Of a DNA stretch of 64,000 nucleotides, positions 11,918 to 25,526 are shown in pieces. Location: positions 62,001 through 126,000 of the forward strand of contig JALEFZ010000059.1 in the NCBI GenBank assembly GCA_022760475.1, written 5' to 3'. A model generated the notes under the pieces. The model was not told the origin of the DNA. It saw nothing but the letters and a program-made list of their open reading frames with translations, and did no database searches. The DNA comes from Bacteroidia bacterium. Lineage in GTDB: Bacteria; Bacteroidota; Bacteroidia; J057. The translations under genes and the position numbers were made by a program. Position 1 is the first letter of the stretch; the number at the start of each line of letters is the position of its first letter.

Positions 11918-12457
11918 TTATTCAACGAAGGCTGTCTTAACTGTCGTATTTAAAATCACCTGAATCTCTGTTGATTCCAGGAGAGTTTTTCCCAAAGTCA
12001 TACTGTAAAGCAGAGAAATATTTTCTGCATCCATCAAGTCAGACAAACTGGGTGTCGTTGGATCTGTTTTCACCCTGATCATTTTACCACCTTTGGCGGC
12101 TTCTTCAGCAACTTGCGAGGTAAACTTCAATGGCACTTCTCTCCCCTCCAAAAATAGGCTTGCACTAAAGTCTTTGAGATAGGCAAAATCTGCCTTGGAA
12201 GAATCAGGCATCAAAAAGGTAACTGACTTCAATTCAATGTCTTCAATAAACTGGACCCCTCTTTTTTCCAGCTCTTCGCCTAACCTGTTTTCTGAAACAG
12301 GGATTTTCACCTCAACAGTAGAATCTGCTGCGAAAGGTGCATTAAGGGGGATGTTAAATTCATAGTCATAGTCAAAGCTCAGGCCGGGCACACCAAATTC
12401 TGTACAGGAGACGAACATGAAGGCTAAAGGCAACAAGACAAGGAAGATCTTTTTCAT
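11918..12457 (-). CDS. Hypothetical lipoprotein
   Basis: A 179-residue protein with a signal peptide and lipobox ending FVSC (MKKIFLVLLPLAFMFVSC), so it is probably a lipid-anchored envelope protein. The mature domain is acidic, with beta-type segments (NIPLNAPFAADSTVEVKIPV, VEVKIPVSENRLGEELEKR) and no motif that I recognise. The start is placed at the Met directly before the signal peptide; a Met six codons upstream precedes it without adding a signal. It has its own terminator. Function unknown. Confidence 0.8.
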   Translation of the reverse strand: MKKIFLVLLPLAFMFVSCTEFGVPGLSFDYDYEFNIPLNAPFAADSTVEVKIPVSENRLGEELEKRGVQFIEDIELKSVTFLMPDSSKADFAYLKDFSASLFLEGREVPLKFTSQVAEEAAKGGKMIRVKTDPTTPSLSDLMDAENISLLYSMTLGKTLLESTEIQVILNTTVKTAFVE

Positions 12458-12634
12458 GTGATTGATATAGAGCAATATTTATTAATAATATCAAATTTTA
12501 CACTTACAAATCTATACGATTATTCGAATTAAAAATAATTCATTTTTGGGAAATACTTACAAGCAAAGAGGAAGAAACCGAAACTGATCCGGCATCTTCC
12601 TCTATTATTTTCTAGGGTGAGAAAAACTTACTAC

Positions 12635-14026
12635 TTATGTTAACTCATTGGATTTCACTGCATGTATCATAAAAAAACCTTCTGACTCATCCTCCTTGAT
12701 TTTTCCAGAATCTTTCACATAGCCTATGTTCCAAATTTTCTTGATCGTGAATCCACTGTCTTCCAAAAGCCCTGTGATCTCATCTTTTGAAAAATAATGC
12801 AGGAAGGCTATTTCTTTTCCATTGGTTCTTTTGTAGAACACATCTCCCTCTTGGTATCCATATTTATACAGTTTCATGTTGTTGTAGGCTTTTACTGCCA
12901 GAGGTCCCCATTCGTTTTTGTTCCCCATATTGAATACATCTATCATCAATGGAGCATTCATTTTCAAATGTTTATTCAGTTTAAGCAGGGCATTTTTCCT
13001 GACGTCATAGGTACTGATATGTCCAAAGGCATAAAGCCATGTAGCTGCACAATATTGTTTCTCAGGGGGAAGTTCAAGATCTACCCAACCTGAATTGATC
13101 AACTCTATATCCTTTTCTGCTGCAACTTCACACATGGAAGCACTGATGTCGACTCCTTGAATCTTATAAGTTGATCCAGAAATTTTCCGGATGTCAATGG
13201 CCCTCCTTCCTGTACCACAGGCAATATGAAGAACTTCGTCAAGGCTTTCCAGATTTCTGAATTGATTGGCAATGATTTCATTGATCTTATCCGTGTAGGC
13301 AGACCTTGATTCGTGTTTTTGGTCTATTTGATCATAAATCTCAGCTTGCTCACAATAATATGCACCGACCATCTCCCCTATTCGTTCGGATTCAGGTTTG
13401 GGAATGACAGGATAAATGACATGGGAACGTTTGCGATGGAAGGTAGCCATGTCCTGAAAGCTGAATGCATTCTCTCGTAATGCCTTAAAATGTCCTTCTC
13501 GATCTGACCAGCTAGCAGACTTGGCAGTAGCGCTCAGGATTCCCTCCGCTCCAATTTCGGTATTGTAAATGGCTAGATCTTCAAGGGTGTCCAAGGCTGG
13601 ATAATAAAAATGTATACTTACAGCTCCCTCTTTTTCGTTGGGGTTGGCGAGTTTGTGAATGGTTTGATCAGGCTCATCAGCTACTCCTCCGGCAAGGTAG
13701 CGAACCGCATGAGACTCACCTAAAATTCCATCCTTAAAAACATATTCTATGTTGTCCAATTCGCCTTCTAACATAGCGACGTACCCATAAAAACCTTTAT
13801 GATAATGAATGGCACTTTCTGTTGATGGAGGCCAATAGATCAACACACACTCAAAAGGTTCCAGGCAAAGGATGTTTCTTCCATAATCTCCTGGATCGCA
13901 TTCATACGGTATATGTTCTTTGTATTCAAGTTTTGCGAGGTCAATCCCTTTGACAAAATCTCCCAGCGATTCATATGATAGGTCTTCTTTTCTAAAATTG
14001 TTAATTCTTTCGAGTAGTTGCTTCAT
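12635..14026 (-). CDS. Cysteine dioxygenase-like cupin fused to SAM-dependent methyltransferase
   Basis: A 463-residue two-domain protein. Residues about 25-165 match thiol dioxygenases (cysteine dioxygenase family): three probable iron-ligand histidines at His74 and His76 (SAIHYHKG) and His124 (IHKLAN); Arg50 in YGRNIL at the position that binds the substrate carboxylate in cysteine dioxygenase; and Tyr141 in HFYYPAL at the place of the catalytic Tyr157. The cysteine that crosslinks to that tyrosine in mammals is Gly81 here, as in most bacterial enzymes. Residues about 215-460 are a class I methyltransferase, with the SAM motif VLHIACGTGRRAIDI (265-279) and GVDIS. The likely first step is oxidation of a small carboxylated thiol to a sulfinate; coupling to methylation is inference. 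It appears to be a single-gene transcription unit. Confidence 0.88.
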   Translation of the reverse strand: MKQLLERINNFRKEDLSYESLGDFVKGIDLAKLEYKEHIPYECDPGDYGRNILCLEPFECVLIYWPPSTESAIHYHKGFYGYVAMLEGELDNIEYVFKDGILGESHAVRYLAGGVADEPDQTIHKLANPNEKEGAVSIHFYYPALDTLEDLAIYNTEIGAEGILSATAKSASWSDREGHFKALRENAFSFQDMATFHRKRSHVIYPVIPKPESERIGEMVGAYYCEQAEIYDQIDQKHESRSAYTDKINEIIANQFRNLESLDEVLHIACGTGRRAIDIRKISGSTYKIQGVDISASMCEVAAEKDIELINSGWVDLELPPEKQYCAATWLYAFGHISTYDVRKNALLKLNKHLKMNAPLMIDVFNMGNKNEWGPLAVKAYNNMKLYKYGYQEGDVFYKRTNGKEIAFLHYFSKDEITGLLEDSGFTIKKIWNIGYVKDSGKIKEDESEGFFMIHAVKSNELT

Positions 14027-21267: not shown

Positions 21268-21815
21268 CATCCATTTTCCTACTCCCCCCCTTAGAATAAG
21301 GCCCCAATACTAAATAGCCATGAAACATTCATCCCAATGTTCAGCCCTATTATCCTGCTTTCTACTTGTTCCCAAAAGGAGCCATTGGAAACAACCATTT
21401 AGATAAGGGGTAAAATAACTTTGGTGAGTTAAAGAACCGTCTTTCTCCAAGAGATACCAAGGGTTACTATCTGATGGGTGAAGACAGCCTATCTTATGTT
21501 CGGGATCTTGGGGATTTGATGGAAAGGCCTTCCTTAGCAAGATTAAATCCAGACATTGGAATTTTTTTCACCCAAATAGCAAAATAAAGCAGTAGGGCCA
21601 ATATATGATTGGCTCTCCAACCAATTGAAGTGTAAGGGCTTCCTGCGTATAATATTTTTCAACTACAAAAGATATATATCAGGAGAGCTTAGGATAGCCA
21701 CTCGTAAATAAAAAAATGAAACCAATTCCTAAAAATTTTGCTTATCCTTTTTATTTGAGTAGTCCTTCGATACAAAAAGCCCATCTTTTGTATATTCATG
21801 AAAATTAATTGAGTG
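21268..21815. other. 548-bp intergenic region with remnants of a small gene
   Basis: Apart from the decayed frame at 21337-21587, I see no gene or clear structure. A 76-codon minus-strand frame (21310-21540) has no protein-like character. The last 200 bases presumably hold the promoter of the kinase-cyclase gene. Confidence 0.55.
21337..21587 (+). pseudogene. Decayed small lipoprotein-like gene (frameshifted)
   Basis: One frame begins MFSPIILLSTCSQKEPLETT, a lipobox-like N-terminus, and stops at about 21400. A second frame continues protein-like from 21417 (NFGELKNRLSPRDTKG, then YYLMGEDSLSYVRDLGDL) and stops at 21587. The two frames differ by one phase, as if a small insertion or deletion between 21399 and 21417 broke a gene of about 80 codons. 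No family is recognised; the alternative is coincidence. Confidence 0.4.
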
Positions 21816-24800
21816 ATGGGAAGAAATTTTTGTAGAGGCTTATCCATTTTGTTTTTTGGGCTGTTGGCTTCATTCCCAAGCTCTATCCTTTCTCAAAATA
21901 CCAAGATTGAGCTATTCAGAGACCAATTTGGATCCCCTAATGACAGCCTCGGTATCTCCTACGCCGATTCTCTCTCCGACGAGTTTGAGTCACTGGAAAT
22001 GTGGGATTCGGCTTACAGATATAACATGCTAGGCATTGAGCGCTGCAGGACCTACAGAGATACCGCGAACCTTATTGAGCTTATTTACAACCTTCACCCC
22101 TATTATGAAGCCCTTGGAGATACCCTTAGAGCAGATAGTTGCAGGAGGGCTGCTTATCGTCTATTGGGATACTATGGATCAAGATTACAGAAAGAATTCA
22201 ACTCCTTCAACAACTCTATTGTATCCTCCAGAAAACGCTTTTCACTCTTGGTGTATGAAGATAGCAGCAAGACTGTAGACCTTGATTCAGCCATTAGTTT
22301 ATTCTATCAAGGTAAATTTAAAGCCAACTTCCAGCTCCAACCCAACAAGGACAACAGGGCATGGATCCGGTTCAGGATCAAAGGTTTCAGGGATTCATCA
22401 CTTAGGGCATTGTTTATGCTTGGGATGGAAACCCAGACCTGGGATACCGCCCAAATTTACATACCCCTCTCTTCGAATTCTTGGCGAAAAGAGGTTACGG
22501 GGCTTCGGGTACACCCCAAAAATAAAACCTCGGTGAAAGAATGGGGGAACATGTTTTATGTTGACCTCCCGGCAGGAAGCGATACCACAATTTTTATCCA
22601 ACTGGATGGTCTGTCCTCTATCAGGTCTGTCCCTGCCTATTTCATCAGCGAGCTTCAAGCTGAGTTTTTAACAGAAATCAGGTCTGAAGAGGAGAAGAAA
22701 ATTTTTGCCTTTTTGGGCATTTTGATGGCCATGGCCATGTATTTCTTGCTTTTGGCCATTGTTACAAAGGAAAAGTCTTATGTACCTTATCTGGTCTATC
22801 TATTTGGGATGATTTTGATTCCATTGAATTATTCCAAATTTCATGATTGGTTTCCTATGTATTCCGATTATGATTATTTCATGTACTTCCTGGGAATTGC
22901 CATTGCTGGTGCAGGCCTTCTTTCATTTTCCCGTACTTATCTGAACATCAAAAAACTTTCTCCAATCTGGAATAAAATCACAAAAATTTTCACCATCATC
23001 TACGTCATTCCTCCCATATTCATGAGTGTCGTATTTGGCTTTGGTTTCGTTTTTGGCAGCTACGATTTATCTCCAATAGGTGAACAAATTTTAAGCGTTT
23101 CCACAACTGTAATGGTCTTTTTATTGTTCATCAATATATTCCTGGGGCTGGTCCTGACCGTAATTTTAGGTTTTATCGCCTATAGAAAAGGATTTAAGCC
23201 GGCAGGATCATACCTCATTGGAATGACAATCCTGATCATTTTCGTTGGCCTACTTTCTGTGCTCTTGGTGTTAAACCCGAGGTTTATCATGATTTATCTG
23301 GATTATGAAATTGCCACCTCTACGGCAATGGGAGGGATCATTTTACAGTTGATCTTCTTTGCCCTGGGAGTCGGACAAAAAATCAACCTCCTCGAACAAG
23401 ACAATGCCAAAGCGCTTAAGTCCAAACTGGAAGTTGAAAGAGAAGCCAAAGACAAATTGCTTCAGGCAGATAAATTGAAAGACGAATTTCTAGCGAATAC
23501 TTCTCATGAATTACGTACCCCGCTTAATGGAATTCTGGGTCTAAGTGAGGCTATAAATGATGGTATTACAGGCCCTACTACACCCGAGATGCAGGAAAAC
23601 CTTGGTATGATTATCAGTTCTGCCAGAAGGCTTAGTGGCTTGGTCAATGATCTTTTGGATTTTTCAAAGCTAAAAAACTATGACCTGGAACTTCAATTGA
23701 GACCCCTCGATTTTCGTTCCCTTGCAGATGTTGTCCTCAAAGTAAGCCAATCCTTGCTGGGTGAAAAAGACATTGTGTTGGCTCATAACATTCCTGCTGA
23801 CCTCCCAGCTGTCATGGCGGATGAGAATCGATTACAACAAATCCTTTACAACCTGATCGGCAACGCCATCAAATTCACCGAAAAAGGACAGGTTCTATTG
23901 GAGGCATGGCACGAAAATCAAGTGGTAAATATTTCTGTTAAGGACAGTGGTATTGGTATTCCAAAGGATAAGCAAGATCAGATCTTCCAATCTTTCGAAC
24001 AAGGAGATGGCTCTACAGCCAGGGAGTATGGCGGCACAGGACTTGGATTAAGCATTACCAAACAGTTGATCGAGTTACATGGAGGTAAAATCAAGGTAGA
24101 ATCTGAAGTGGGAAGAGGCTCTAATTTTTCATTCTTTATTCCCATCACTGATAAAAATACAGAGACATATAATGAATTGCCGAAGGTTGAAGAAAACCCT
24201 ATTTCCATTCCAGAGGCTCTTCCAATTGAAAAACAGGAGTTAATCACGAATCAGCAGACAAAAGCGAGGCTTTACACGGGTAATAAATCCCTTTACCGCA
24301 TCCTGGTAGTAGATGATGAGCCCGTAAACCGCCAAGTTCTTAAAAATCATCTCGCTGCCGAGCCGTTTTACGTAACGACTGTTATGAATGGTGTCGAAGC
24401 CCTAGAAGCAATAGATTCTGGCCAGGAATTTGACCTTGTCTTGCTGGATGTAATGATGCCAAAGCTATCAGGCTTTGAGGTTTGTCAGAAGCTAAGAGAG
24501 AAATATCTTCCAGCAGAGCTACCCATCATCATGATTACGGCTAAAAATCAGGTCTCTGATCTGGTCTCAGGGCTAAAATTCGGGGCCAACGATTACATTG
24601 TTAAGCCCTTTTCCAAACAAGAATTGCTGGCAAGGATTCAGACACACCTGCATTTGCTGGACATCCATGCAGCTACAAGTCGATTCGTTCCCTATGAGTT
24701 TCTGAGATCCCTTGGAAAAGAGACCATTACTGAGGTCAAATTAGGGGATCAAGTTGCGCGAGAGGGCACTATCCTATTTTCTGATATCAGAGGCTACACA

Positions 24801-25526
24801 AGCGTGGCTGAGGGCATGACTCCAAGGGAGACCTTCGCCTTTCTGAATGCCTATCTGAGCAGGATGGGACCTATAATTCAGGACAACCAAGGCTTCGTCA
24901 ATCAATTTTATGGGGATGGAATCATGGCCTTGTTCCTGAAAGGTGGGGAAGATGGTTTGAAAGCAGGAATCGGAATGCTAAAGACCTTACATATTTATAA
25001 TGAAGAGCGCCTCCAAAAAGGACGAACCCCACTTCGCATCGGCATAGGCCTGCACATGGGTTCTCTTATGCTGGGCATGATCGGGGATACCCGACGCCTG
25101 GACACTGGGCTAGTCGCTGACTCTGTAAATACCACTTCAAGGATAGAGGGTCTTACCAAATTCTATGGTGCATCTCTCTTACTTTCAAGGTCGCTCTATG
25201 AGGAAATAGAAAATCCTGAGGATTACCATCTAAGACCGCTGGGAAAGGCATTGGTGAAAGGAAAGAAAGAACCGATTGAACTTTTTGAATGTCTGGATGG
25301 TCTTGAGGAAAGGGAATTTCAACTGAAAGTTCAAAATCAACCCGATTTCGAAGCTGGCTTGGAATCGTATTACAATAAGAATTTTGCCCGAGCGATTGCC
25401 TGCTTCTCTCAGGTTTTGGAACAAAATCCCGACGATCTCGCTGCGAAGTATTACCTGGATCAGGCGTCCTCCTTACTGGGAAAGACTGTTGCAGAAAATT
25501 GGACCGGGGTAAATCAGGTTGGATAA
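21816..25526 (+). CDS. 7TM hybrid histidine kinase - receiver - class III nucleotide cyclase
   Basis: A 1236-residue signalling protein (from the ATG at 21816; a GTG lies one codon earlier). In order: signal peptide, a 7TMR-DISMED2-like extracellular domain at about 125-275, a seven-helix membrane region at about 290-515, HisKA with His564 ([12 protein letters not shown]), HATPase at about 670-785, receiver with Asp878 ([13 protein letters not shown]), a class III nucleotide cyclase domain at about 980-1165 and a TPR-like tail ([17 protein letters not shown]). The cyclase has metal Asp990 in FSDIRGYT, the second Asp in [10 protein letters not shown], and the Asn/Arg pair in [14 protein letters not shown]. 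Purine-selecting positions are Gln (VNQFYGD) and Gly, not the Lys/Asp or Lys/Thr of adenylate cyclases. It links an external signal to phosphotransfer and probably a cyclic nucleotide. Confidence 0.9.

Follow-up and report, generated by a model that had tools for sequence, protein, structure and literature searches.

A conserved cysteine dioxygenase-methyltransferase fusion of mostly marine Bacteroidota and its possible role in joining thiol oxidation to methylation

Introduction

In OvoA, a SAM methyltransferase is combined with non-heme-iron thiol chemistry. In mammalian cysteine dioxygenase (CDO), cysteine ligates the iron through its thiolate and its amine (PMC8050391). NmbA, the bacillithiol N-methyltransferase (9ri2), methylates a thiol metabolite at its cysteine amine, and N-methyl-bacillithiol is present in Bacteroidetes (PMC6282198, PMC12719100), so that thiol-linked N-methylation is known chemistry in the phylum. 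Glycine sarcosine N-methyltransferase (GSMT) has an active-site His138 and, after beta-5, a carboxylate-binding Arg167 in MpGSMT (PMC5146677). A search confined to the open literature, with subscription papers outside its scope, gave nothing relevant on a CDO-methyltransferase fusion or on N-methyltaurine biosynthesis. Here we report a gene that joins the two domains in one reading frame; its product is a genuine and conserved two-domain enzyme, apparently undescribed and built of known families.

Results

The window, which is the whole 64,000-nucleotide stretch of DNA analysed, carries the fusion gene on its minus strand (Table 1). The ORF begins with ATG and runs from 14026 to 12635 with no internal stop. 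Pfam matched CDO_I (PF05995) at residues 44-149 with 46.5 bits and Methyltransf_25 at residues 265-355 with 32.2 bits, both exceeding the respective cut-offs of 23 and 27 bits. A sequence-only reading of this DNA had proposed a thiol dioxygenase fused to an intact class I methyltransferase and had suggested an HMM check of both domains. The cupin reached twice its cut-off, and the SAM motif of the C-terminal half is conserved. A PKP sequence (209-211) sits just past the linker in the alignment of 58 fusions.

The fusion gene is solitary in its genome, as shown by the gap of 159 bp to the next downstream ORF (11918-12475, same strand, without a Pfam match) and by a divergent ion-channel gene 203 bp upstream. 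The 6.86-Mb genome contains no other CDO_I match. Elsewhere in the window (21813-25526), a 1237-aa protein was read by eye as a hybrid histidine kinase with a receiver, an adenylate/guanylate cyclase-like domain and a TPR-like end.

Table 1. Positions of the fusion gene, its modules and its conserved motifs in the window, with the loci in which pdxH follows
Feature	Position	Strand	Remarks
Whole CDO-methyltransferase fusion gene	12635..14026	minus	463 aa, stop codon included; intact ORF
CDO module, residues 1-195	13442..14026	minus	CDO_I match; stand-alone relatives (191-198 aa) stop here; Foldseek 4qm9
Y48-G49-R50, pocket Tyr and putative substrate-carboxylate Arg (Arg-type CDO)	13877..13885	minus	Y-x-R-N aligned with CDOs
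H74-Y75-H76, two of three predicted iron ligands	13799..13807	minus	H74 and H76 58/58; aligned with CDO His ligands
H124, third predicted iron ligand	13655..13657	minus	58/58; aligned with CDO His
S137-x-H139-x-Y141, Ser-His-Tyr motif	13604..13618	minus	S/T137, H139 and Y141 58/58
Inter-domain linker, about residues 196-204	13415..13441	minus	H202 nearly invariant; model confident here
Class I SAM methyltransferase module, residues 205-463	12638..13414	minus	Methyltransf_25; VIA-align
SAM motif I, VLHIACGTGRR, residues 265-275	13202..13234	minus	G271, T272, G273 and R275 58/58
H336, candidate acceptor-site His	13019..13021	minus	58/58; aligned with the NSFTH His of GSMT
Loci with pdxH next downstream (fusion or CDO-only)			L016, L029, L032, L038, L041, L046, L047, L049, L058-L061, L066, L069, L082, L086, L094, L096, L037

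Dioxygenase half

The residues that the sequence-only reading had taken for the CDO catalytic set (H74, H76, H124, R50 and Y141) are all present and align with those of the B. subtilis and mammalian CDOs. Across the 58 aligned fusions, Y48 and G81 are invariant and R50 is kept in 57, with Lys in the remaining one; the Cys-pocket residues Y48, R50, W65, H139 and Y141 are kept. The profile of this half matched the Bacillus subtilis CDO (3eqe/4qm8) with an E value of about 3e-19 and mammalian CDOs with about 1e-12 to 5e-14. Foldseek matched the N-terminal half to the cysteine-bound CDO of B. subtilis (4qm9) with a TM of 0.85 on the target and an rmsd of 2.3 A; the correspondence of the iron His residues to those of solved CDOs is at the level of alignment and fold. 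By every testable sequence criterion, the half is an Arg-type CDO, and we expect with good confidence that the fusion dioxygenates cysteine or a close analogue.

In a quick version of the CDO tree, this half forms a separate clade (SH-aLRT 99, stem branch 2.15) apart from the ordinary Bacteroidia CDOs. Three genomes of the clade also contain an ordinary CDO, one with the fused form (G266) and two with the CDO-only form (G317 and G211). The long stem and the ordinary CDO alongside indicate that the role of the half is likely to be specialised rather than housekeeping. A further unusual CDO architecture is that of another locus (L131:1597-2826), a 409-aa protein in which an N-terminal domain of no recognised kind precedes a weakly CDO-like C-terminal one (24.9 bits).

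Methyltransferase half

The C-terminal half combines a Rossmann-like fold with the glycine-rich motif of class I SAM methyltransferases, and we have little doubt that it is an active one. Ten putative acceptor-site residues (Y223, Y231, R241, Y244, H336, D363, W373, Y398, H410 and Y411) are invariant in 58/58 fusions, as are D232, F365, E372-W-G and D395. Among characterised proteins, those nearest by profile for the most part N-methylate small amines (TylM1, GSMT/GNMT, phosphoethanolamine methyltransferases, MitM and NmbA); the topmost structures, 1wzn and 3d2l, carry no functional name. Foldseek returned many class I methyltransferases with NmbA (9ri2) first, and VIA-align of residues 207-461 gave Z scores of about 20-23 to a broad class I set, none of them prominent. 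The methyl acceptor would be a small molecule, most likely an amine. The position of GSMT Arg167 is taken by F365 in every fusion; the half does not qualify as a glycine/sarcosine N-methyltransferase, and the acceptor would have to be held otherwise than glycine is in GSMT.

Two named identities were considered and rejected. Against C. tepidum NmbA (9ri2), the profile of the methyltransferase half scored 41.9 bits, roughly as much as against other methyltransferases. By single-sequence search, the fusion-bearing genome G337 has another gene that scored 139.9 bits to 9ri2; this different gene is a true NmbA relative, which rules out NmbA as the identity of the fused half. The bacillithiol pathway was also dropped as a discriminating trait, since BshC was found in 11/11 genomes examined, fused or not. 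An OvoA-like identity was rejected because TIGR04345, the OvoA C-terminal model, scored 20.1 bits on the fusion against a cut-off of 170 and no OvoA above cut-off was found in the window's genome. The same genome encodes an EgtB-like sulfoxide-synthase homologue (L102, G000:C1:69483-70727; ovoA_Nterm 129 bits, cut-off 400).

Spread and conservation of the fusion

Of the 395 Bacteroidia genomes sampled, 7 carry a full-length fusion, the genome of the window counted, and the six others were 42-49% identical; the CDO half occurred alone in four genomes of the same sample. A second sample of 395 genomes, drawn across the phylum, gave no additional match. In a second collection (genome_contigs), a single-sequence scan detected no relative, and an alignment-based profile was needed to find 61 loci, nearly all full-length fusions and a few of them the same records as the whole-genome matches. 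The carriers in this collection belong to Flavobacteriales, Crocinitomicaceae, Cryomorphaceae, Saprospiraceae, Cyclobacteriaceae and other Bacteroidota MAGs; altogether they are dozens of Bacteroidota, mostly marine. Judged by this kinship, the window too would derive from class Bacteroidia. The 58 full-length fusions that were aligned, including that of the window, are 34-48% identical to it. A plasmid search found no copies of either CDO-methyltransferase fusion (the other is described below).

The fused form is that of nearly every relative found, with single domains in five relatives, and the survey of the architecture bore out the expectation of a real fusion. Its recurrence in 7/395 Bacteroidia genomes and about 60 loci of the second collection indicates that the fusion is neither chance nor artefact. 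The two-domain architecture appears to be new; its component domain families are already known.

AlphaFold2, run with the 58-row alignment, predicted one rigid two-domain protein with a mean pLDDT of 96 and a pTM of 0.92, so that the arrangement of the two domains relative to each other is a confident prediction. The pairwise identities of the two halves are correlated (Mantel r 0.87, with 0/2000 permutations as high), and dN/dS in close pairs is about 0.03-0.25 for each half, in keeping with purifying selection.

The CDO-only relatives of the same clade (L034-L037) might have formed a split pair with a separate methyltransferase. This was rejected: no orphan methyltransferase of the clade was found in their genomes, where the best match reached 55 bits against >312 in the fused ones. 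A methyltransferase-only relative, 34% identical and without the His equivalent to H336, was found in an Obscuribacterales MAG (L093:7995-8828), the genome of which has no CDO_I match. The CDO-only relatives, in four genomes, and the methyltransferase-only one, in one genome, indicate that evolution can part the two activities.

Gene neighbourhood

Of the 64 loci having a downstream gene, 19 have pdxH immediately downstream in the same orientation (Table 1); the stop and start codons often overlap, by 1-4 bases in several pairs, and the loci are spread over the tree. An asparaginase_2 gene is downstream in 8 loci. Neither adjoins the fusion gene in the window. The recurrent neighbours are pdxH and asparaginase_2, neither of which has a known action on cysteine sulfinate or taurine. 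The pdxH link may reflect a role near PLP, or merely shared O2-dependent regulation.

A second fusion lineage

A second, far-diverged fusion of a CDO with a class I methyltransferase was found as a 551-aa protein in one genome (G159), with four more at 53-66% identity. Members of this lineage (L130:2055-3710, also L140-L144) have a long helical linker, and CDO-only forms occur as well (L145 and L146; genomes G888 and G772). The AlphaFold model has a pLDDT of 89.6. Compared with the window fusion, the linker is longer and the methyltransferase is poorly related, BLAST aligning only motif I, whereas profile comparison aligns the two fusions collinearly over both halves. The CDO of the second lineage falls elsewhere in the quick CDO tree, and the lineage likely arose independently. 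In some genomes it sits in a sulfur setting of transport and persulfide-type genes, its neighbours including sulfur transporters, a sulfate permease, a rhodanese/beta-lactamase-fold protein, a peroxiredoxin and a thioredoxin. The second fusion was not found in viral contigs. The existence of this lineage supports a functional link between the two chemistries.

Discussion

In the explanation that we prefer, the N-terminal cupin would bind Fe(II) through H74, H76 and H124 and dioxygenate cysteine, or a close small carboxylate thiol, to a sulfinic acid, a step that the conserved residues strongly support. R50 and Y48 would hold the thiol substrate, with assistance from S137-H139-Y141. With SAM as the donor, the C-terminal domain would then methylate a small acceptor, in all likelihood an amine. 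This acceptor may be the sulfinate product or the metabolite that follows it, in which case an N-methylated cysteine sulfinate or taurine-type compound would result, and the fusion would couple the oxidation and methylation steps. The domain identities, the residues and the true fusion of the sequence-only reading stand; its idea that an oxidised thiol product is methylated goes beyond them and is retained as a conjecture.

The near-universal fusion, the co-evolution of the halves, the confident model and the second fusion lineage speak for coupling, and the CDO-only and methyltransferase-only relatives weaken it in its strict form. On balance, we lean slightly towards the two activities belonging to one pathway. 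A bifunctional enzyme that both oxidises a thiol to a sulfinate and methylates a small amine within the same pathway is a tentative proposal, and it is rather doubtful that the sulfinate or its product is what the fusion methylates. The full picture is possible rather than probable: in marine Bacteroidota a bifunctional thiol dioxygenase/N-methyltransferase would make a methylated metabolite of cysteine-sulfinate or taurine type that has so far gone undescribed, while a far-diverged second fusion of the two enzyme types occurs elsewhere in Bacteroidia. If both activities share one substrate, a single protein would lead from cysteine to a methylated sulfinate or sulfonate, and its gene would serve as a marker for this organosulfur metabolite in marine Bacteroidota. 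We know of no maker of such a metabolite in these bacteria. Even if the methyltransferase has a different target, thiol oxidation and methylation are tied together by this architecture.

The existence of each domain without the other, the position of pdxH, a gene of PLP synthesis, beside even a CDO-only relative (L037), and Phe365 in place of the GSMT-type carboxylate Arg would all fit two active domains with separate targets. The methyltransferase might then act on a vitamin B6/PLP-linked compound or on an amine unrelated to the sulfinate, with the fusion serving co-expression or regulation by cysteine or O2 and no hand-over of substrate. Such an arrangement has a real, if minor, chance of being correct; the near-universal fusion, the co-evolving halves and the second lineage favour a metabolic link instead. 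The dioxygenase substrate may also be a thiol other than free cysteine, such as homocysteine or a cysteinyl derivative or, if the methyltransferase acts first, its N-methylated thiol product. A different task is suggested by the long-stem clade and the ordinary CDO beside it in three genomes, but the known Cys-pocket residues are kept and an N-methyl group would impede the amine-iron binding of cysteine, and we regard this substrate as unlikely.

The joining of a cupin to an effector-like domain, and the second, ordinary CDO of some genomes, could be read as a non-catalytic cysteine/O2 sensor gating the methyltransferase. Sensors often lose catalytic residues, whereas here the full iron and Ser-His-Tyr set is present in 58/58 fusions and the CDO half is under purifying selection, making a sensor very improbable. 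A mere joining of two genes by assembly or annotation, to which the five single-domain relatives might point, is ruled out for practical purposes by the one stop-free reading frame and by the 58 full-length fusions from many separate assemblies.

Four known systems come closest to the fusion. Arg-type bacterial CDO (B. subtilis YubC, 3eqe/4qm8/4qm9) resembles the fusion in its cupin fold, 3-His iron set, Y-x-R-N and Ser-His-Tyr, and both have Gly where mammalian CDO has the cross-linking Cys. The fusion is about 27% identical to YubC and differs from it in the extra C-terminal methyltransferase and in its own clade apart from the sampled Bacteroidia CDOs. NmbA shares the class I fold and is the top Foldseek match of the C-terminal half, but its identity to that half is only 16%, and the match is tied with other class I enzymes. 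GSMT and TylM1 share the layout of the SAM motif; H336 corresponds to the active-site His of GSMT, and Y223 lies near Tyr14 of TylM1. In contrast to both, the fusion has a CDO partner, the invariant Phe365 in place of the GSMT carboxylate Arg, and two extra motifs, EWGP and GDVFY. In OvoA/EgtB-type enzymes the iron domain is an FGE/DinB sulfoxide synthase, whereas in the fusion it is a cupin CDO.
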